The position numbers and the translations under genes are program-made. This document shows, piece after piece, positions 293 through 8,079 of a DNA stretch of 8,079 nt. The DNA comes from Clostridia bacterium (GTDB lineage Bacteria; Bacillota_A; Clostridia; Oscillospirales; Acutalibacteraceae). Every line of letters begins with the position of its first letter. Positions within the stretch are counted from its first letter, which is position 1. Where the stretch lies: NCBI GenBank assembly GCA_017529165.1, contig JAFXNY010000171.1, positions 1 to 8,079 of the forward strand, written 5' to 3'. The notes under the pieces are model-generated. The model saw only the letters and a program-made list of their open reading frames with translations, did not search any database and was not told the origin of the DNA.

Positions 293-321
293 ATTATAGT
301 ATTTGCTAATACTTTTGTCAA
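293..321 (-). promoter_or_regulatory. Perfect-consensus sigma-A promoter for the racemase gene
   Basis: Read on the minus strand, TTGACA (plus 316-321) is followed by a 17-bp spacer and TATAAT (plus 293-298). Both hexamers match the consensus exactly at the optimal spacing. The predicted transcript start near 286 leaves a leader of about 30 nt before the ATG at 256, containing the GGGAGG ribosome site. A promoter this strong on a cell-wall gene is often held down by a repressor, and the spacer contains an inverted repeat. Confidence 0.85.
298..313. promoter_or_regulatory. Inverted repeat inside the racemase promoter spacer (possible operator)
   Basis: AGTATT-TGCT-AATACT is a perfect 6-bp inverted repeat with a 4-bp centre. 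It lies almost exactly between the -10 and -35 elements of the racemase promoter, where a bound repressor would block RNA polymerase. Short AT-rich repeats like this also arise by chance, so position is the main support. No cognate regulator is visible. Confidence 0.35.
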
Positions 322-417: not shown

Positions 418-1167
418 ATGCTTGAAAACGGCGAGAAACAAAGCAATATAATATGCGGCAGAAACCCTGTTCTTGAAGCACTCCGTTCAGGCAGGGAGAT
501 TGATAGACTACTTATAGCCCACGGCGCAAACAGCGGCAGTATTAAAGAAATAGTTGCCAAATGCTCTAAAAAAGGCATTCTTATAAAGGAAGTAAGCCCA
601 CAAAAGTTAGATTTCTATTGTGGTGGGGCAAATCATCAGGGAGTGGCAATAACCTTTGCTTTCAGAGATTATTCTTCAATTTCGGATATACTTAAGGTTG
701 CAAAAGAAAAAGGCGAAGACCCCTTTATAATGATTTGTGATGAAATAGAAGACCCTCACAACTTAGGGGCAATTATCCGCACGGCGGAGGTTTGCGGAGT
801 TCACGGCATCATAATTCCAAAAAGGCGCTCGGCGTCGCTTAATGCAACCGTTGCAAAAACGAGTGCCGGCGCACTCGAATATATGAGAGTGGCGCGTGTT
901 ACAAACATATCCGCCGCTATTGATGAATTAAAGCAAAACGGCGTTTGGGTCTTCGGTGCGGATATGGACGGTGAAGATTATAACCTTACTGATTACCGTG
1001 TTCCCTGTGCACTGGTTATCGGCAACGAGGGCAAGGGGATAGGACCGCTCGTCGCAAAAAAATGCGATAAGATAATAAGCCTGCCAATGCGTGGCAAAAT
1101 CAATTCGCTTAACGCCTCTGTTGCCGCAGGTGTTTTAATGTACAAGATTATGGAACGCAGGAATTAA
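418..1167 (+). CDS. rlmB: 23S rRNA (guanosine-2'-O-)-methyltransferase, RlmB/TrmH (SpoU) family
   Basis: This 249-residue protein has the usual RlmB length. It is predicted to transfer a methyl group from S-adenosylmethionine to the 2'-OH of a ribose in RNA; RlmB proteins modify 23S rRNA. The N-terminal substrate-binding domain (about 10-85) opens with the family-typical GRNPVLEALRSG. The C-terminal SPOUT trefoil-knot domain (about 103-247) shows all three motifs: NLGAIIRTAE at 115-124 with R121, VIGNEGKGIGP at 200-210 with N203, E204 and G205, and SLPMRGKINSLNASVAAGV at 221-239. These form the knotted cofactor pocket. AGGGTGA at 406-412 supports the ATG at 418. It is the first gene of the operon, 18 nt ahead of the next. 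Family-level TrmH proteins also modify tRNA, so the exact RNA substrate is inferred. Confidence 0.93.
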   Translation: MLENGEKQSNIICGRNPVLEALRSGREIDRLLIAHGANSGSIKEIVAKCSKKGILIKEVSPQKLDFYCGGANHQGVAITFAFRDYSSISDILKVAKEKGEDPFIMICDEIEDPHNLGAIIRTAEVCGVHGIIIPKRRSASLNATVAKTSAGALEYMRVARVTNISAAIDELKQNGVWVFGADMDGEDYNLTDYRVPCALVIGNEGKGIGPLVAKKCDKIISLPMRGKINSLNASVAAGVLMYKIMERRN

Positions 1168-1185: not shown

Positions 1186-3852
1186 ATGGCAAGAAAATCA
1201 AAGCATTCAGACAATGATTATATAATTGACTATAACGATCCTTCTTTCTTTGACGGCGAAACTGTTCTTGAAGAGAGAAATGAGAGCATTTTATCGGAGT
1301 TCGGCAAAGGTGTAAACAGTAAGCCCGTAACAGTTCTGCCAAAAAAATCAAACGAAAATAAGTCTAAAAGTCCTCTTGAGGCTCTAAAGGCAAATCTGCC
1401 GTCAAAGGCTGTGGAGGAGCAAGAAAGCAATAAAACATCAGAAACTTTTGAACAAAATATTGCCGAAGAAGAGCCGGCACCTGCCGAAAAGCCAACTGAG
1501 AGCGAGCAAGAAATGTCTCTGCTCGAAAAATTAAAGAGATATACTACCGATGAAACCGGCCATGATGTTGCAGAGGATGAGTCGCCGTTATATCGGCTCG
1601 AAAGCGTAGCGCAGATAATAAAGAATAACAGCAGTTCGCTTTTAGGTAAGCTTTCGGAAAAATATGATGTAACGGTTGATACTCTCGGAAAACCCACAAA
1701 TGACGATTATCTTCTTAAAGGCTTTGAAGATGAAGTGGAAGAAACTAAGGAAGAAGAAACCGAACCGTCAGAAAAGTCCGAGCCAAAACCCACCCCTACA
1801 CCTGCATTTGAAAAAATGGCCGATGATTCCAAAAAGAGATTTGAAAAGAATATTTTTGATGAGCTTTTCCCAAAGGAAAACATTGAAGAGCAAAGTGCGT
1901 CTGATACTGTACCCGATATATCCGATATTGATAATTCCGGCACAGAAAACGAGTCGGAAAATACCGAAACACGCTTTGATACGGCAACCATTCGCTTTAC
2001 ACCGATAGTCGATAAAAAAGGTAATACAGGGCGGATAAACATTAGCAGTTCAACAAGGGCTATTGATATAAGCCAAGAGCTCACAAGTGCAGAGAATGCA
2101 ACCGAAGAAGCGGATAAGACAGCTCTAGAAGTCAGCGATTTCGATTTGTTTATACCAAAGGATGAAGTAACTGACATTGCCGCCCAAAAAGCAGTTGCTA
2201 AAAAGCTGGCGCACAAAAGAAGGCATTACTTTTTATCCGGTGCAATATGCTCTGTGTGCGTTTTTGTTCTGTTTCTGTTCTTAATACCTGTTTTGGCAGA
2301 TAAGATTATAAGCTCAACCGGCGGCGCAATGGCATTTTGCAGTGCTATACTTTTTATAACGATTATTGCCAACGCCGATATGTTCAAAGATTTGGTAAAT
2401 CTTTTTAAGTGTCGTGCGGGGCATGACAGTCTTTTATCTCTTTGTGCTATCTTAGGTGTACCCCTTTGCATTTTTTCCTCAATCAGTGGAGAAAATATCT
2501 ATCATATAATTTTACTTACGGCAATTTTAATGCTTACACGCTCAATTTGTTCTTTTTTACACATCTCGACAATGCTTTCAAATCTACGCCAGACAAAAGG
2601 TAAAGCTAAAAAAAATGCCGTATCGTTTATCAAAGATAATTCAACAGCTGTTGCAATGGCAAAAGATTCTATAGAAGGCGATGTTTTAATAGCGGCACCG
2701 AGAAAAACCGATTTTATAACTGATTTTATGAAGTTTTCGCTCTTTAAGCAAAAGCTTTCAGGCAAGATAACGGTTATGTTTATAGTAACTGTTATTCTCT
2801 CGGCGTTAGGTGCGGCAATGTCTTATTTTTATTATAAAGACACTTTTTCCGTACTATATTCTGCGGCAATAGCTTCTATAATAGCGGCAATGCCTACAGT
2901 TTGCTTTATAGACATTTTGCCTCTGTTTTCAGCCGCAAAAAAGCTTAACCGAAACGGCGCTATGATAACCGGAACCTACGGCGCCGATATAATCGAGCTT
3001 TCAAATGCCGCAGTTGTAAAGACGAAGGATATATTCCCTGCCGGCAGTATAGTGCTTAAAAGCCTTAAGGTGCTCTCAAACAACAACATTGATAAAACAA
3101 TAGTAAATGCGGCGGCGCTCACCGAAGAAATAGGCAGTCCGTTAGCGCCGATATTCAATAAAATTGCCGGAACAAACACATCTTATAAAAAACCCGATTC
3201 CGATACAATTAAGTATGAGGAGAGACTTGGCGTCTCCGGTTGGGTTGATAATGAGCTTTTGTTCATCGGCAACAGAACGCTACTCGAGGCGCACGGAATA
3301 GAGGCCCCCAATATTGAAGTGGATAAAAAAATACTTAAAAGCGGCTGCTTCCCTGTTTATGTGGCAACCGCAAACGCCGCTTGTGCGCTTATAATTGTTC
3401 AGTATGTTGTCCGCTCGGATATACAAAAGCTTTTGCGAAAAATATCAAAGCTCGGAATTACCATGCTTTTTGATAATTGCGACCCCAATGTAAACGAAAA
3501 TATGATTTGCGATTATTTCGGACTTTATGAAGACAGCGTTAAAATAATGACGAATGTGGGCACTTATATGTGTAAAAACGCCACAGCCGATACAAATATG
3601 ATTTCCGCACCGGCAAGCTTTAAGGGCAACTCACTATCACTTCTTAAAATTATGAGCTGTGCCTCGGGTATCCGTATTTCAAATAAGATTTTATCAATTT
3701 ACTATATACTTGCCTCAATTTTAGGCGTTTGGTATTTTGCTTTTACATCCTTTGCAGTATCTGGCGGTTTGTTATCGGGGGCTTCTATACTGCTATTTGA
3801 AATGTTGGCGACAGTTATAGGCTTAATTGCATTTTTAATTAAAAAACCGTAA
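1186..3852 (+). CDS. Degenerate P1B-type ATPase-like membrane protein with acidic N-terminal extension; function unknown
   Basis: The protein has 888 residues, with a GGGGT ribosome site at 1174-1178. Residues 1-345 are Glu/Asp/Lys/Ser-rich and probably disordered, with short less-biased blocks at 111-168 and 266-298. Eight hydrophobic segments follow near 348-371, 380-397, 414-435, 438-458, 527-548, 554-577, 836-856 and 859-884, in the 2+2+2+2 order of P1B ATPases. The 460-526 loop keeps an actuator-like GDVLIA (498-503) but has no TGE. The M4 metal motif CPx reads MPT (569-571). The phosphorylation motif DKTGT aligns with VKTKD (611-615), so the acceptor Asp is Val. The nucleotide-site HP is SP (651-652), though GxxG and IGN remain (682-696). 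TGDN reads NCDP (764-767), and GDGxNDxP is absent. Residues 600-700 still resemble the P/N domains. It is probably catalytically dead but is an intact frame between co-transcribed genes. Pumping activity is not supported; a sensor or scaffold role is speculation. Confidence 0.85.
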   Translation: MARKSKHSDNDYIIDYNDPSFFDGETVLEERNESILSEFGKGVNSKPVTVLPKKSNENKSKSPLEALKANLPSKAVEEQESNKTSETFEQNIAEEEPAPAEKPTESEQEMSLLEKLKRYTTDETGHDVAEDESPLYRLESVAQIIKNNSSSLLGKLSEKYDVTVDTLGKPTNDDYLLKGFEDEVEETKEEETEPSEKSEPKPTPTPAFEKMADDSKKRFEKNIFDELFPKENIEEQSASDTVPDISDIDNSGTENESENTETRFDTATIRFTPIVDKKGNTGRINISSSTRAIDISQELTSAENATEEADKTALEVSDFDLFIPKDEVTDIAAQKAVAKKLAHKRRHYFLSGAICSVCVFVLFLFLIPVLADKIISSTGGAMAFCSAILFITIIANADMFKDLVNLFKCRAGHDSLLSLCAILGVPLCIFSSISGENIYHIILLTAILMLTRSICSFLHISTMLSNLRQTKGKAKKNAVSFIKDNSTAVAMAKDSIEGDVLIAAPRKTDFITDFMKFSLFKQKLSGKITVMFIVTVILSALGAAMSYFYYKDTFSVLYSAAIASIIAAMPTVCFIDILPLFSAAKKLNRNGAMITGTYGADIIELSNAAVVKTKDIFPAGSIVLKSLKVLSNNNIDKTIVNAAALTEEIGSPLAPIFNKIAGTNTSYKKPDSDTIKYEERLGVSGWVDNELLFIGNRTLLEAHGIEAPNIEVDKKILKSGCFPVYVATANAACALIIVQYVVRSDIQKLLRKISKLGITMLFDNCDPNVNENMICDYFGLYEDSVKIMTNVGTYMCKNATADTNMISAPASFKGNSLSLLKIMSCASGIRISNKILSIYYILASILGVWYFAFTSFAVSGGLLSGASILLFEMLATVIGLIAFLIKKP

Positions 3853-3868: not shown

Positions 3869-5782
3869 ATGTCAGAAAAGAAAAAGTTTTATATTACTAC
3901 GGCTATAGCCTACACCTCAAGAAAGCCGCATATAGGCAACGCTTATGATATTGTGCTTGCCGATATGATAGCACGCTATAAAAGACAGCAGGGCTTTGAT
4001 GTTTTCTTTATGACCGGCTCTGATGAACACGGCCAGAAAATAGAAGAATACGCCAATAAAGCCGGCATATCGCCTAAAGAGTATGTGGATAATGTATCGG
4101 GTGAAATTAAAAAGGTTTGGAATAGTCTTAATACCTCTTACGATAAGTTTATAAGAACTACTGATGAAGACCACGAAAAGGCCGTTCAGCATATTTTTGA
4201 AAAACTATATAAGCAGGGCGATATTTACAAAGGCGCATACGAGGGTAAATACTGCGTGCCCTGCGAATCATTCTTTACCGCTTCACAGCTTAAAGACGGT
4301 AAATGCCCCGATTGCGGAAGAGAAGTAATTGATTCAAAAGAAGAGGCTTACTTTTTAAAGCTTTCAAAATATCAGGAAAGACTTGAAAAATATTTTGAAG
4401 AAAACCCCGATTTTATTAAGCCTGAGTCTCGCAAAAACGAGATGATAAACAACTTTATAAAACCCGGTCTTGCCGATTTGTGCGTTTCTCGCTCAAGCTT
4501 TAAGTGGGGCATACCGGTAACATTTGATAGCGACCATGTAATCTATGTTTGGATAGATGCTCTTTCAAACTATATAACCGGTATCGGGTATGATACAAAC
4601 GGAAATGCAAGTGAGCAGTATAAAAAGCTTTGGCCTGCCGATTTGCATGTAATAGGTAAGGATATTGTGCGTTTCCATACTATATATTGGCCGATAATTC
4701 TTATGGCGCTCGGAGAGCCGTTACCACGCCAGGTTTTAGGTCACCCGTGGGTGTTAGTGGGTGAAGACAAAATGTCCAAATCAAAGGGCAATGTGATTTA
4801 TGCGGACGAATTAGCCGAAATGTTCGGTGCGGACGCTGTAAGGTACTATCTCCTTTCAGAAATGCCCTTTACGCAGGACGGCACTATAACCTATGAATCT
4901 TTTATAAATAAGTACAACACCGACCTTGCAAATACGCTCGGCAATCTTGTAAACCGCAGTATTGCGATGACCGGTAAATACTTTGGCGGCACTGTGGACT
5001 GCCTTGGTAAAAGCGATTTAATAGACGATGAATTAAAAGCATTCGCCAGTGAGACCATAAAAAAATACACCGAAGCTATGGAAACGTACCATAACGCCGA
5101 TGCAGTAGGAGCGTTAATTGCGCTTGCAAAGCGCTCTAATAAGTACATTGACGAAACAACGCCTTGGGCGCTCAGTAAGGATGAAAGCAATAAAGACCGC
5201 CTTAAAGCCGTTCTTTACAATCTGCTTGAGTGTATAAGGCTTATAGGAAATGCAATCTATCCTGTAATGCCCGAATGCTCTGATAGAATAAAAGCGTTAC
5301 TCGGCACAGACGAGCAGTCGCTAACATTCGGTGCAGTTAAAACCTATAATGTAGGCGAGGCAAAACCGCTTTTCGCACGCATTGATACTGAAAAGGTGCT
5401 CGCAGAAATCGCCGAGAAGCAAAAGGAAACTGCACCGGCAGAGAATACAGTAAAGCTTGATGAGATTTCGATTGAAGACTTCGCTAAAATAGAACTTCGT
5501 GCGGCGAAGGTTACCGCCTGTGAGCCTATACCGAAAGCCAAAAAGCTACTTAAACTCACACTTGATGACGGAAGCGGTACACCGAGAACAGTAGCCTCCG
5601 GCATATCGGCATTTTATACTCCGGAGGACCTTATCGGCAAAACAGTTATAGTTGTAGCCAACCTAAAGCCTGCCAAGCTTTGCGGAGTTGAATCGAACGG
5701 CATGATATTAGCGGCTGACAGTGACGGAAAAATAAAAGTTGTCTTTTTAGACGATGTTAAACCCGGCAGTAAAATAAGATGA
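3869..5782 (+). CDS. metG: Methionyl-tRNA synthetase with C-terminal tRNA-binding domain
   Basis: This 637-residue class I synthetase charges tRNA-Met with methionine in the cytoplasm using ATP. The HIGH-type signature is KPHIGN at 19-24, and KMSKS is intact at 301-305 (the ATP-binding loop). A single zinc knuckle in the connective-peptide region uses C129, C132, C146 and C149 (CVPC...CPDC). Other family blocks are MTGSDEHGQKIEEYA at 48-62, YVWIDALSNYITG at 226-238 and HVIGKDIVRFHTIYWP at 260-275. The helical anticodon-binding domain occupies about 345-510. A Trbp111/EMAPII-like OB-fold tRNA-binding domain fills about 535-637 (FAKIELRAAKV to the C-terminus) and usually drives dimerisation. 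AGAGG at 3855-3859 supports the ATG. The gene starts 16 nt after the P-type-like gene, and its TGA overlaps the tatD start. No T-box leader precedes it. Confidence 0.97.
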   Translation: MSEKKKFYITTAIAYTSRKPHIGNAYDIVLADMIARYKRQQGFDVFFMTGSDEHGQKIEEYANKAGISPKEYVDNVSGEIKKVWNSLNTSYDKFIRTTDEDHEKAVQHIFEKLYKQGDIYKGAYEGKYCVPCESFFTASQLKDGKCPDCGREVIDSKEEAYFLKLSKYQERLEKYFEENPDFIKPESRKNEMINNFIKPGLADLCVSRSSFKWGIPVTFDSDHVIYVWIDALSNYITGIGYDTNGNASEQYKKLWPADLHVIGKDIVRFHTIYWPIILMALGEPLPRQVLGHPWVLVGEDKMSKSKGNVIYADELAEMFGADAVRYYLLSEMPFTQDGTITYESFINKYNTDLANTLGNLVNRSIAMTGKYFGGTVDCLGKSDLIDDELKAFASETIKKYTEAMETYHNADAVGALIALAKRSNKYIDETTPWALSKDESNKDRLKAVLYNLLECIRLIGNAIYPVMPECSDRIKALLGTDEQSLTFGAVKTYNVGEAKPLFARIDTEKVLAEIAEKQKETAPAENTVKLDEISIEDFAKIELRAAKVTACEPIPKAKKLLKLTLDDGSGTPRTVASGISAFYTPEDLIGKTVIVVANLKPAKLCGVESNGMILAADSDGKIKVVFLDDVKPGSKIR

Positions 5783-6564
5783 TATATCCGGACGAATGTA
5801 AAATACAGGAAAACCTTATTTTTGATACCCACTCGCATTATGACGACAGTAGGTTTGACGGTCTTCGTGACAAGCTACTAAGTGAAATGCACAACAGTGG
5901 CGTTGCAAATATTATCACCTGTGCAGTTGACGGTTTTTCAGCCAAAAAGGCACTCTCGCTTGCAGAAAAATATAATTTTATTTATGCTGCAGTTGGCATT
6001 CACCCTGAAAATCTTAAAAGCAAAACTACTATAGATGAAATAAAACGGCTCTCTGCGCACAAAAAATGCGTGGCGATTGGCGAAATAGGGCTCGATTATT
6101 ATTACACTCAAGATAACAACGAGGAACAAAAGCAGGTTTTTGAAAACCAGGTGATGCTTGCCAACGAATTAAAGCTACCTGTTATAGTTCACGACAGGGA
6201 AGCTCACGCAGATACACTCAAAATACTAAAAAAGCACAAGCCTAAAGGTGTTTTGCATTGCTTTTCGGGCAGTGCTGAAATGGCAAAAGAAATAATTAAA
6301 ATAGGTATGTATATCGGTGTTGGCGGAACGATTACATTCAAAAATGCACGGAAACTTCCGGATGTTATAAGGGAGGTACCGAGAGACCGTATTTTACTTG
6401 AAACCGACTGCCCTTACCTTTGCCCGGAGCCATACAGAGGCAAGCTTTGCCACTCGGGTTATATCACGCTCACAGCTGAAAGGATTGCGGAAATCTTGGG
6501 AACGGACCGTGACAGCATATTAAGGAAAACATGCGAAAACGCAAGAAAATTATTATCCCTTTAG
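5779..6564 (+). CDS. tatD: TatD family metal-dependent hydrolase/deoxyribonuclease
   Basis: The 261-residue protein is a TIM-barrel amidohydrolase-superfamily nuclease; TatD proteins are Mg-dependent DNases with 3'-5' exonuclease activity linked to DNA quality control. The metal ligands are visible: H18 and H20 in DTHSHYDD, E102 in GEIGLDYY, H138 in PVIVHDREA, H160 in VLHCFSG and D210 in LLETDCPYL. The PYRGK signature is at 218-222. The ATG overlaps the metG stop as ATGA, a typical translational-coupling arrangement, with no strong ribosome site of its own. This start gives about 12 residues before the LIFDTH strand, longer than many family members, but there is no later in-frame ATG before the essential DTHSH. 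The metG-tatD pair is a common Firmicutes gene order. Physiological substrate is not shown by sequence. Confidence 0.93.
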   Translation: MIYPDECKIQENLIFDTHSHYDDSRFDGLRDKLLSEMHNSGVANIITCAVDGFSAKKALSLAEKYNFIYAAVGIHPENLKSKTTIDEIKRLSAHKKCVAIGEIGLDYYYTQDNNEEQKQVFENQVMLANELKLPVIVHDREAHADTLKILKKHKPKGVLHCFSGSAEMAKEIIKIGMYIGVGGTITFKNARKLPDVIREVPRDRILLETDCPYLCPEPYRGKLCHSGYITLTAERIAEILGTDRDSILRKTCENARKLLSL

Positions 6565-6760: not shown

Positions 6761-7129
6761 TCAAGAATGTTCTTTTAGATGTTTTTTTATTGCTTTAAAG
6801 GTTTTTTCACTTATATAATGCTCTATTCGGCATGCGTCTTCAGTTGCGGTTTTCTCATCTACGCCGAGACTTACGAGCACAGCTGCAAGGGTTGTATGGC
6901 GTTCATAAATATTTTTTGCAGATTTTTTGCCCTTATCTGTGAGCGTTATATTTCCGGAACCGTCAACCAGAATAAAACCATCGTCTTTCAGAAGTCCCAT
7001 TGCCCTGCTTACAGACGGTTTTGAAAACCCCATTTGAGCGCTTACATCAATCGCTCGTACACTCGGCTGTTTTTTAGAAAGAATATAAATGGTTTCTAGA
7101 TACATTTCTCCCGATTCTTTTACTGCCAT
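6761..7129 (-). CDS. Short DtxR-family metal-dependent transcriptional repressor, probably iron-responsive
   Basis: The 122-residue protein has the DtxR winged-helix DNA-binding domain (about 5-65; recognition region SKPSVSRAMGLLKDDGF at 36-52) followed by the helical metal-binding/dimerisation domain (about 66-122). There is no C-terminal SH3-like domain, so by size it resembles MntR. The visible ligands resemble DtxR/IdeR instead: M9 in GEMYLE where MntR has Asp, and C100, E103 and H104 in ACRIEH, matching DtxR Met10, Cys102, Glu105 and His106. H78 is conserved, but residues equivalent to DtxR Glu83 and His98 are Ala and Thr. AGGTGA (plus 7134-7139) fixes the start at 7129; an in-frame ATG at 7186 lies upstream of that site and of the proposed promoter. 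The gene is divergent from feoA-feoA-feoB, whose promoter carries three palindromes. Iron rather than manganese sensing is inferred from the ligands and neighbours. Confidence 0.88.
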   Translation of the reverse strand: MAVKESGEMYLETIYILSKKQPSVRAIDVSAQMGFSKPSVSRAMGLLKDDGFILVDGSGNITLTDKGKKSAKNIYERHTTLAAVLVSLGVDEKTATEDACRIEHYISEKTFKAIKKHLKEHS

Positions 7130-7154
7130 ACGCTCACCTCTTTCTACTATTTTA

Positions 7155-7183
7155 AGATTAACACACTTGAAAGATTTTTTCAA
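7155..7183 (-). promoter_or_regulatory. Probable promoter of the DtxR-family regulator
   Basis: On the minus strand, TTGAAA (plus 7178-7183) and TAATCT (plus 7155-7160) are 17 bp apart, with a TG one base before the -10. The -10 itself matches only three consensus positions, so this is a weak, extended -10-type promoter. The leader would be about 20 nt and include AGGTGA. None of the three palindromes overlaps it; the nearest starts about 30 bp upstream. Confidence 0.4.
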
Positions 7184-7190
7184 CAAAAAA

Positions 7191-7206
7191 CTTTTTTATA
7201 AAAAAG
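7191..7206. promoter_or_regulatory. AT-rich perfect palindrome upstream of the feo -35 (UP-element-like)
   Basis: CTTTTTTATAAAAAAG is a perfect 16-bp palindrome ending one base before the feo -35 hexamer. A- and T-tracts at this position commonly act as UP elements that bind the RNA polymerase alpha C-terminal domain. The palindromy may be a by-product of adjacent T and A runs. It differs in sequence from the three feo operators. Confidence 0.4.
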
Positions 7207-7207
7207 C

Positions 7208-7236
7208 TTGACAAGTTAGCATACGGTAACTATAAT
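7208..7236 (+). promoter_or_regulatory. Perfect-consensus sigma-A promoter for feoA-feoA-feoB
   Basis: TTGACA (7208-7213), a 17-bp spacer and TATAAT (7231-7236) match the consensus exactly. A-rich DNA lies just upstream. The predicted start is near 7243, leaving a leader of about 70 nt. The spacer is occupied by a palindrome, so the promoter is probably strong when free and shut when the repressor binds. Confidence 0.88.
7214..7231. promoter_or_regulatory. Operator palindrome 1, inside the feo promoter spacer
   Basis: AGTTAGC-ATAC-GGTAACT is an imperfect copy of the motif GTTAGC-N4-GCTAAC (one mismatch between the arms). It fills the gap between -35 and -10, overlapping the first base of the -10. 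Its centre is 34 bp from the centre of palindrome 2. The TTAG/CTAA arms resemble the known DtxR box half-sites (TTAGGTTAG...CTAACCTAA). It is the probable binding site of the adjacent DtxR-family protein. Confidence 0.7.
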
Positions 7237-7247
7237 ATAATCAGGTT

Positions 7248-7265
7248 AGTTAGCGAGAGCTAACT
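7248..7265. promoter_or_regulatory. Operator palindrome 2, at the start of the feo leader
   Basis: AGTTAGC-GAGA-GCTAACT has perfect 7-bp arms. It lies just downstream of the predicted transcription start near 7243, and its flanks (TTAG before, TTAA after) extend the DtxR-box resemblance. In RNA the same bases would form a 7-bp stem capped by a GAGA (GNRA-type) loop. Confidence 0.75.
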
Positions 7266-7281
7266 TAATATTTTCATCGTA

Positions 7282-7299
7282 GGTTAGCAGGAGCTAACT
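7282..7299. promoter_or_regulatory. Operator palindrome 3, ahead of the feoA ribosome site
   Basis: GGTTAGC-AGGA-GCTAACT has perfect 6-bp arms (GTTAGC/GCTAAC) and is 14/16 identical to palindrome 2 across the 16-bp core. Its centre is again exactly 34 bp from the previous one. It ends just before the AAAGGA ribosome site (7301-7306). A repressor bound here would act as a roadblock or help cooperative binding with sites 1 and 2. Confidence 0.75.
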
Positions 7300-7315
7300 A
7301 AAAGGACGTGACTGT

Positions 7316-7528
7316 ATGATTCCCTTAACCGTAGCGCCGATAGGCACCGAAAGCATAATACGGCGCATAGGCGGAAACGAAGAGGTTAAACGCCACCTTG
7401 AAAGCTTAGGCTTCACCGTTGGAGGAACGGTAACGGTTATAAACACGCTCGGCGGCAGCGTTATTGTGAATGTTAAAGAATCTAGGGTTGCTATAGGCAA
7501 GGATATGGCAACAAAGATTATGATATAA
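7316..7528 (+). CDS. feoA: FeoA family protein, first copy (ferrous iron transport accessory)
   Basis: This 70-residue protein is a single SH3-like FeoA domain. FeoA proteins are small cytoplasmic partners thought to interact with the FeoB iron permease; their exact role is not settled. The family pattern is visible: an N-terminal strand, then the helix and turn VKRHLESLGFTVGGTVTVI (24-42), followed by strands NTLGGSVIVNVKESRVAIGKDMATKI. The AAAGGA at 7301-7306 lies 9 nt before the ATG. It is the first gene of the feo operon, 13 nt ahead of the second feoA, and is diverged from it. The LGFTVGG turn identifies the domain; the sequence has no metal-binding cysteines or histidine cluster. Confidence 0.88.
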   Translation: MIPLTVAPIGTESIIRRIGGNEEVKRHLESLGFTVGGTVTVINTLGGSVIVNVKESRVAIGKDMATKIMI

Positions 7529-7541
7529 AGGAGTATTTATT

Positions 7542-7763
7542 ATGAACACTTTAAGGCAGGCAAAAATCGGTCAGACCGTAAGGGTTAAAAAGCTTCACGG
7601 CGAGGGCGCCGTAAAACGCAGAATTATGGATATGGGTATTACAAAAGGCGTTGAGGTTTATGTCCGTAAAGTAGCTCCCCTCGGTGACCCTATAGAAATC
7701 ACAGTGCGAAATTATGAGTTATCCATACGCAAGGCAGATGCCGAAATGATAGAAATTGAGTGA
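7542..7763 (+). CDS. feoA: FeoA family protein, second copy
   Basis: This 73-residue protein is a second complete FeoA SH3-like domain. It shows the most typical family signatures: [30 protein letters not shown], given as residues 24-53, in which the MGITKG turn and the APLGDP loop are hallmark positions, then [14 protein letters not shown] at 59-72 as the last strand and helix. AAAGGAG at 7527-7533 overlaps the stop of the first feoA. The stop of this gene (7761-7763) is merged with the GAGGTGG ribosome site of feoB, so all three genes are translated as a tight unit. Clostridial feo operons often encode two FeoA proteins ahead of FeoB; whether both bind the same partner is unknown. Confidence 0.93.
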
Positions 7764-7773
7764 GGTGGCAAAA

Positions 7774-8079
7774 ATGGATAAAAAAATTAAAATTGCCCTT
7801 GCAGGCAACCCGAACAGCGGTAAAACAACCCTTTTTAACGCTCTTACAGGCTCTAACCAGTTTGTAGGTAACTGGCCGGGCGTTACAGTTGAGAAAAAAG
7901 AGGGCAAGCTTAAAAAACACAGCGATGTTATAGTAACCGACCTTCCGGGTATATACTCTCTTTCCCCTTATACCCTCGAAGAGGTTGTTGCAAGAAATTA
8001 TCTTATAAATGAGCAACCTGATGTAATTCTTAACATTATTGACGGTACGAACCTTGAGCGAAATCTCTATCTTACCACA
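7774..8079 (+). CDS. feoB: Ferrous iron transport protein B, N-terminal G domain (runs off right edge)
   Basis: The first 102 codons are present. FeoB is the inner-membrane Fe(II) permease, with a cytoplasmic GTP-binding domain at its N-terminus followed by a GDI-like helical domain and membrane helices that lie beyond this window. The G1/P-loop GNPNSGKTT is at 11-19. The region with the switch-I threonine, [13 protein letters not shown], is at 33-45. G3 DLPG is at 54-57, followed by [10 protein letters not shown] and [13 protein letters not shown], all typical FeoB blocks. G4 (NxxD) is not yet reached. GAGGTGG at 7762-7768 lies 5 nt before the ATG and overlaps the feoA stop. Transcription is expected from the promoter at 7208-7236, under iron control through the three palindromes. 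Confidence 0.97.

Follow-up and report, generated by a model that had tools for sequence, protein, structure and literature searches.

A maintained family of P1B-type ATPase homologues without catalytic motifs, encoded behind rlmB in Clostridia

P-type ATPases are among the best-known ion pumps and are treated as enzymes. The closest described relatives of the protein considered here are the Cu+-exporting P1B ATPases (CopA, ATP7A/B), which have the same fold and the same order of helices and domains; in contrast to these, its family has no DKTGT, GDGxND or CPx motif and no HP histidine, and the protein itself also lacks TGE, has shortened actuator and P domains and carries a long, mostly disordered tail. 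The fold and the origin are thus known ones, and what has changed is the loss of catalysis and the long tail. Pseudophosphatases and pseudokinases have kept a conserved fold under selection after losing catalytic residues, and in this respect the family is like pseudoenzymes in general. Its nearest precedent in kind would be the human ER protein ERMA/TMEM94, which, according to two reports, has a P-type-like body with TGES missing and GDGVND altered (PMC12134183, PMC13322241). The resemblance is probably one of kind, since TMEM94 as described there has ten membrane helices and keeps DKQGI, whereas the present family has eight helices, has lost DKTG and is missing the GDGxND region. A literature search that covered few subscription papers and no bioRxiv preprints found no bacterial P-type family described as pseudo, degenerate, inactive or non-catalytic.

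The locus and the predicted fold

The gene lies in a stretch of 8,079 nt, the whole of which was analysed and is called the window here, with the following arrangement.

One end of the window, reverse strand: start of alr
418..1167, forward strand: rlmB, encoding the 23S rRNA G2251 2'-O-methyltransferase (TIGR00186, E-value 1.1e-73), which as a rule precedes the pseudo-ATPase gene
1186..3852, forward strand: pseudo-P1B-ATPase gene, 888 codons
3869..5782, forward strand: metG (TIGR00398), downstream neighbour in the window's subgroup
5779..6564, forward strand: tatD (PF01026), overlapping the end of metG
Beyond tatD, reverse strand: gene for a DtxR-type repressor
Other end of the window: start of feoB

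The four genes from rlmB to tatD are all on the same strand, with 18 bases between rlmB and the pseudo-ATPase ORF, 16 bases between this ORF and metG, and a 4-base overlap of metG and tatD; the pseudo-ATPase gene is probably expressed together with rlmB. No tRNA or Rfam family was found in the window, and the best E-value in a PHROGs search was only 0.19.

No Pfam family matches the 888-codon ORF at an E-value of 10. The NCBIfam CopA model matches residues 523-780 (E-value 4.4e-13, far below the curated cut-off), and a phmmer search of the PDB matched the copper ATPase LpCopA (1.8e-6). A family profile gave 16 matches among PDB sequences at 1e-5, of which the best six are Cu+ ATPases; 15 of the 16 are P1B by name or as otherwise known, the other being a Na+,K+-ATPase (9.5e-6). 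When ten distant members were scanned against NCBIfam, the best matches were to CopA or heavy-metal P-type models in nine (E-value ≤3.5e-8), the tenth (L127) reaching 0.073. Pfam gave matches below cut-off only on the cores of the same number of distant members, the best being Hydrolase (PF00702, 6.4e-5, in L096), and none on a 140-residue piece; longer references did match.

The original prediction held that the C-terminal 540 or so residues keep the P1B topology, with shortened actuator and P domains, and both points agree with the predicted model and with structure comparison. Structure prediction on the core returned the P-type fold, with helices MA, MB and M1-M6 and the A, P and N domains. 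The eight-helix membrane body is complete in the model; the actuator (A) domain is reduced to about 55 residues, the P domain is compact and shortened relative to Cu+ ATPases, and the N domain superposes on that of ATP7A with 2.1 Å over 119 residues. The parts of the protein are as follows, all on the forward strand; helix limits other than those of M4 are from DSSP on the model, and the assignment of these helices is putative.

1186..2205, forward: N-terminal tail, residues 1-340 (from pLDDT, alignment and composition)
2206..3849, forward: P1B-like core, residues 341-888
2209..2277, forward: putative helix MA, residues 342-364
2317..2370, forward: putative helix MB, residues 378-395
2425..2487, forward: putative helix M1, residues 414-434
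2500..2598, forward: putative helix M2, residues 439-471
2599..2766, forward: shrunken actuator domain without TGE loop, residues 472-527 (model, profile alignment and MAFFT alignment)
2767..2835, forward: putative helix M3, residues 528-550
2842..2952, forward: broken helix M4, residues 553-589, with A568-M569-P570 where CPC is expected (model and alignment)
3013..3045, forward: dead phosphorylation loop VVKTKDIFPAG, residues 610-620, with K612 at the Asp place and D615 at the Gly place
3046..3408, forward: N domain, residues 621-741, well preserved
3136..3141, forward: S651-P652, replacing the HP motif (alignment)
3229..3231, forward: G682, identical in 72 of 72 rows of alignment A2 and 68 of 68 of a second alignment
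3268..3270, forward: G695, identical in the same 72 and 68 rows
3475..3486, forward: NCDP (764-767), replacing TGDN, its Asp kept in 66 of 68 rows
3553..3615 (approximate), forward: stretch without the GDGxND loop, gapped in 68 of 68 family rows and present in six of six comparators
3634..3753, forward: putative helix M5, residues 817-856
3778..3840, forward: putative helix M6, residues 865-885

Catalytic motifs and the N domain

Motifs were compared in a MAFFT alignment of 68 family rows, made up of 57 distant members, ten close ones and the protein of the window itself. Six genuine P-type ATPases, from four genomes that also hold the pseudo-ATPase gene, served as comparators. DKTGT, CPC, HP and GDGIND are present in all six comparators; DKTGT, CPx and a histidine at the aligned HP place are found in none of the 68 family rows, and the GDGxND region is gapped, rather than substituted, in every one. 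Nor do DKTG, GDG.N or any of CPC, SPC, CPH and TPC occur in the last 600 residues of the 240 homologues listed by two database searches, so that a check for homologues with intact DKTGT or GDGxND found none, either in the alignment or by pattern among those listed. HP[LIM], TGD and TGE do occur by pattern anywhere in these last 600 residues, in 4, 10 and 13 of the 240 respectively, at unaligned positions.

The losses described for the window protein in the original prediction are largely confirmed by alignment: CPx is gone, the aligned letters being A568-M569-P570, HP has become SP (651-652), TGDN has become NCDP (764-767), and TGE and GDGxND are missing. The phosphorylated aspartate, earlier placed at Val611, is lost too; K612 aligns at the Asp place, which is occupied by S, N, K, H or R across the 11 close rows. 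This motif I Asp is found in none of the 11 rows of the window's type, compared with 36 of the 57 distant rows; by pattern it is present in three of the 120 listed homologues of the window's search and in 119 of the 120 that the second search listed, these being closely related to the distant member L074. Three residues on, D615 is D in all 11 close rows and D or E in 45 of the 57 distant ones. Where TGDN would be expected, the close rows have NCDP or NCDQ. No counterpart of TGE was found in the window protein's actuator; in the six family rows shown the MAFFT alignment has different residues below TGE, next to long gaps, and it misplaces the short actuator stretch, for which a profile alignment to a copper ATPase is better, placing it at GDIV..RPGE(K) and ending upstream of TGE.

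Since the window's protein has no aspartyl-phosphate loop, no Mg2+ loop, no dephosphorylation loop and no metal site, it follows from the established P-type mechanism that the textbook cycle cannot run in it. The Asp kept in 36 distant members and in nearly all listed homologues of the second search means that some members might keep residual or altered chemistry. The retained Asp as a new active site was rejected as a general rule, because it occurs in no row of the window's type and the D615 place holds D or E in no more than 45 of the 57 distant rows.

G682 and G695 are the sole invariant columns of the 72-row alignment A2, and the test of their invariance in the second, 68-row alignment covered the N-domain stretch only. 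G682 aligns with the second Gly of GxG and G695 with the Gly of (V)GN; the HP histidine and one of the two GxG glycines are lost in the family. Glycines can also have structural roles. In an NMR study of ATP7B, the ATP-responsive signals involve G1099, G1101, G1149 and N1150, and ATP binding is unchanged by the H1069Q substitution, the same paper noting that others report a decrease (PMC3203118). As judged from sequence, a nucleotide pocket in the N domain is possible, and nucleotide binding is only hinted at.

Distribution, neighbourhood and selection

Residues 340-888, used as a query, matched 588 proteins at an E-value of 1e-3 or better. The best 120 of these share 46-93 % identity with the query over 97-100 % of its length and are nearly all full length; those among them that have a name go by hypothetical protein. 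The second search, from distant member L074, found 516, the best 120 listed being 49-99 % identical to L074; names here are hypothetical proteins of Caproicibacterium, a 'HAD family hydrolase' of Caproiciproducens faecalis, 'cation transport ATPase' (JGI) and one 'Copper-transporting P-type ATPase'.

A scan of GTDB contigs gave 38 close loci, with metG downstream in all 38, rlmB upstream in 37 (the remaining locus opens 143 bases ahead of the match) and tatD in 36 (the other two end within metG). A first profile matched 151 of 295 genomes of the order, presumably Oscillospirales, at 1e-5, the weakest of these matches possibly being genuine ATPases, and 60 distant loci were chosen from its matches to span the E-values rather than at random. 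With ORFs from a rough custom caller, rlmB is directly upstream in 59 of the 60 (the exception is L127), and in 55 loci the earliest start open to the ORF lies -102 to 225 bases from where the RlmB match ends. In L072 and L097 the copy is broken into two ORFs, with the leading one behind rlmB; L072 (genome G030) is split by a stop. Three loci (L072, L122 and L128) were left out of the motif alignment, which thus holds 57 of the 60, as the ORF picked had fewer than 640 residues; the ORFs of L122 and L128 were wrong picks, and on re-reading the ORF starts at the end of rlmB in these also. Downstream genes vary in the distant loci and metG is not adjacent. By blastp, only two of the 60 distant neighbourhoods contain it (at places -6 and +5), and it was therefore rejected as a conserved partner beyond the close subgroup. 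The rlmB-X-metG order put forward originally is accordingly true of the window's subgroup but not beyond it, and rlmB is the conserved partner.

A third profile (A3) of 52 rows, including rows from 48 of the genomes later scanned with it, matches 294 of the 295 order genomes at 1e-5, and in 287 the match reaches 4.1e-49 or better, the position behind rlmB having been read at the close and distant loci rather than in all 287. Six of the eight genomes without a strong match have no convincing rlmB match either (none, or 3.8e-20 at best), and in the other two a tail-like frame begins behind rlmB and is still open where the contig ends. A sample of 245 genomes of the class included ten already used for the order, and in these the match spans almost all of the core at 5.3e-76 or better. 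The remaining 235, taken together without division by order, reach 6.6e-38 at best, with no match in 13, and their listed best matches fall mostly at profile positions 500-785, with exceptions such as G356 (297-488). In a sample of the phylum two of 199 genomes pass 1e-40, both already drawn for the order. These genome searches scored few candidates per genome (four to six), and a miss is not proof of absence. From its spread over the whole order the family appears to be old, and its order-wide retention together with its place behind rlmB suggests an important job.

Purifying selection is evident in all six close pairs, in agreement with the proposal that the gene is maintained rather than decaying: dN/dS ranges from 0.058 to 0.122 over the whole protein and from 0.028 to 0.090 over the core, with dS above 1 in two of the six pairs and with sequences that begin at the tblastn match rather than at the true start codon. 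It is higher in the tail than in the core in five of the six, the exception being the pair L013/L016. Genuine P-type ATPases number two to four per genome in all nine genomes holding the pseudo-ATPase gene. Rough ORF clustering recognized no P-type neighbour in the 60 distant neighbourhoods, where a distant P-type ATPase could escape it, and the family's own ORF cluster was seen only at its own place and as the two split halves.

The tail and the possible role of the protein

The tail of the window protein is acidic, with 79 D+E compared with 43 K+R in residues 1-340, and is mostly predicted to be disordered, pLDDT being below 50 at residues 1-146, 160-204 and 227-325 in what is a poor model of this part built from a 24-row alignment. 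The 24 members aligned have their first Met in common and many invariant positions, including the tail stretches P.ISDID and RFTP. In the 57 distant members the tail (taken as length minus 548) has 113-925 residues with a median of 381, and it is net acidic in 53. It probably lies on the cytosolic side.

The pattern [ST][VIL][DE][DE]I[LI] occurs within the first 75 residues of 27 of the 57 distant tails (shuffle expectation 0.035) and presumably resembles the FliM N-terminal peptide. A narrow form, sought as a DNA pattern, gave 15 matches in 14 of 117 genomes, compared with one for the reversed pattern; five are in the pseudo-ATPase tail (L145, L146, L151, L152 and L153), three at the N-terminal end of ORFs of a different kind (L142-L144; the first two have VanW and PG_binding_4 domains and L144 is similar by eye), and the remaining seven elsewhere in other ORFs. 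A survey of roughly half of one genome (L074 and 60 stretches, each of 20 kb, with 1758 ORFs of at least 100 aa, spurious ones included) found the motif near the N-terminus of only four ORFs, the pseudo-ATPase gene among them, and the reversed motif in none; by eye the other three resemble a TetR regulator, RsmH and NusB, and the motif was found in no evident tail of any other ORF in that half genome. Given this placement in other ORFs and this rarity, a shared N-terminal docking motif is not upheld, and a shared partner is a lead rather than a result.

Fold, motif loss and selection together bear out the view that the protein is a catalytically dead but maintained P1B homologue. Most probably it is a non-pumping membrane pseudoenzyme derived from a Cu+-type P1B ATPase, a core gene behind rlmB whose product acts as a receptor or scaffold. 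Such a protein would have kept the eight-helix body, the compact P domain and the well-formed N domain of its ancestor and not the residues of the phosphorylation cycle, and its gene would have been fixed behind rlmB early in the history of the order and then retained. The pocket of the N domain may have been kept to hold a nucleotide, or for shape; a nucleotide would be its most natural ligand, which is the weakest step of the scheme. The long acidic tail would dock cytosolic partners at the membrane. A role as sensor, scaffold or partner of another protein, as first suggested, would fit here. A bolder version, which we regard as possible and put forward tentatively, is that a dead copper pump has become an order-wide nucleotide-sensing membrane hub, in which the pocket would sense the nucleotide state, the membrane body would relay it and the disordered tail would bring in machinery of the cytosol or the envelope.

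That the protein is instead an atypical but active transporter, perhaps with chemistry at its remaining Asp residues, finds a parallel in ERMA/TMEM94, for which, in one report, ATP-dependent Mg2+ uptake is described in spite of the absence of TGES and the presence of GSSANL in place of GDGVND (PMC13322241); the complete membrane body of the model, the motif I Asp of 36 of the 57 distant members and the TGD Asp of 66 of 68 rows point the same way. However, that Asp is absent from all 11 members of the window's group and present by pattern in only three of the 120 listed, CPx is lost and GDGxND gapped in 68 of 68, and the window's actuator has only some 55 residues. Another group disputes that TMEM94 is a P-type ATPase (PMC12134183), and in view of this dispute we retain the active transporter as an unlikely reading. 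Dead paralogues commonly act as regulators in other enzyme families, and as each of the nine genomes holds between two and four genuine P-type ATPases the protein could be the dead half of a heteromer, regulating one of these or another transporter in the same cell; against this, the rough clustering recognized no P-type neighbour, one too distant to be caught excepted, and a housekeeping neighbour and near-universal retention are unlike a metal-stress gene, which leaves a regulatory partner decidedly unlikely.

The length and acidity of the tail in the distant members and its conserved stretches in the window's group would also be accounted for if the tail alone mattered and the P1B core were a passive membrane anchor. 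This seems improbable, as the core has the lower dN/dS in five of the six close pairs and the N domain, needless for an anchor, is kept. Motif loss and the one distant copy split by a stop are what a decaying pseudogene or an assembly artefact might show, but this reading is already refuted by a dN/dS of 0.06-0.12 in six pairs, by the 588 homologues, those listed being nearly all full length, and by the same locus in many genomes.

The non-pumping pseudoenzyme that we favour would be a near-universal core gene of one order of Clostridia that has gone unannotated, the window protein having no match in Pfam. If it is indeed a nucleotide-sensing hub, it would be, as far as the literature searched extends, the first case in bacteria of a whole P-type ATPase family converted to non-enzymatic signalling or scaffolding. 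The family is a natural experiment on what the P-type fold is still capable of once phosphorylation is lost, and the same question applies to human ERMA/TMEM94.

Exceptional distant loci and the downstream neighbour

At a single one of the 60 distant loci, L127 (genome G010), no rlmB was found in the vicinity of the family gene; a gene that resembles rplU by eye lies upstream of the family gene at this locus. At L072 (genome G030) the family gene is broken by a stop codon or frameshift into two ORFs downstream of rlmB, and this split copy may reflect either an assembly error or a young loss. The next downstream ORF belongs to cluster C3, from a rough grouping of the neighbouring ORFs, in 11 distant loci (L071, L072, L083, L091, L093, L114, L115, L116, L119, L120 and L126), and by eye this cluster looks like an EF-G-type translation GTPase.

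The N-terminal peptide in other proteins

A near-identical N-terminal peptide, SVDDIL.EY, is present on many family tails and on other membrane-type proteins (loci L142, L143 and L144). The L142 and L143 proteins with this type of N-terminus contain VanW and PG_binding_4 domains.

Promoter-like sites and the feo region

A perfect TTGACA-17-TATAAT promoter-like site (window 293-321, reverse) is directed at alr, divergently from rlmB. The features of window 6764-8079 are as follows.

Features of the feo region
within 6764-8079, reverse: DtxR-type metal-dependent repressor gene, divergent from the promoter
7208-7236: perfect sigma-70-type promoter
7248-7265: dyad AGTTAGCGAGAGCTAACT, after the promoter
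7316-7528: first FeoA-like small ORF (by eye), after the dyad
7542-7763: second FeoA-like small ORF (by eye)
within 6764-8079, after the two FeoA-like ORFs: FeoB gene

This arrangement resembles a feo operon under iron control, together with a putative operator.
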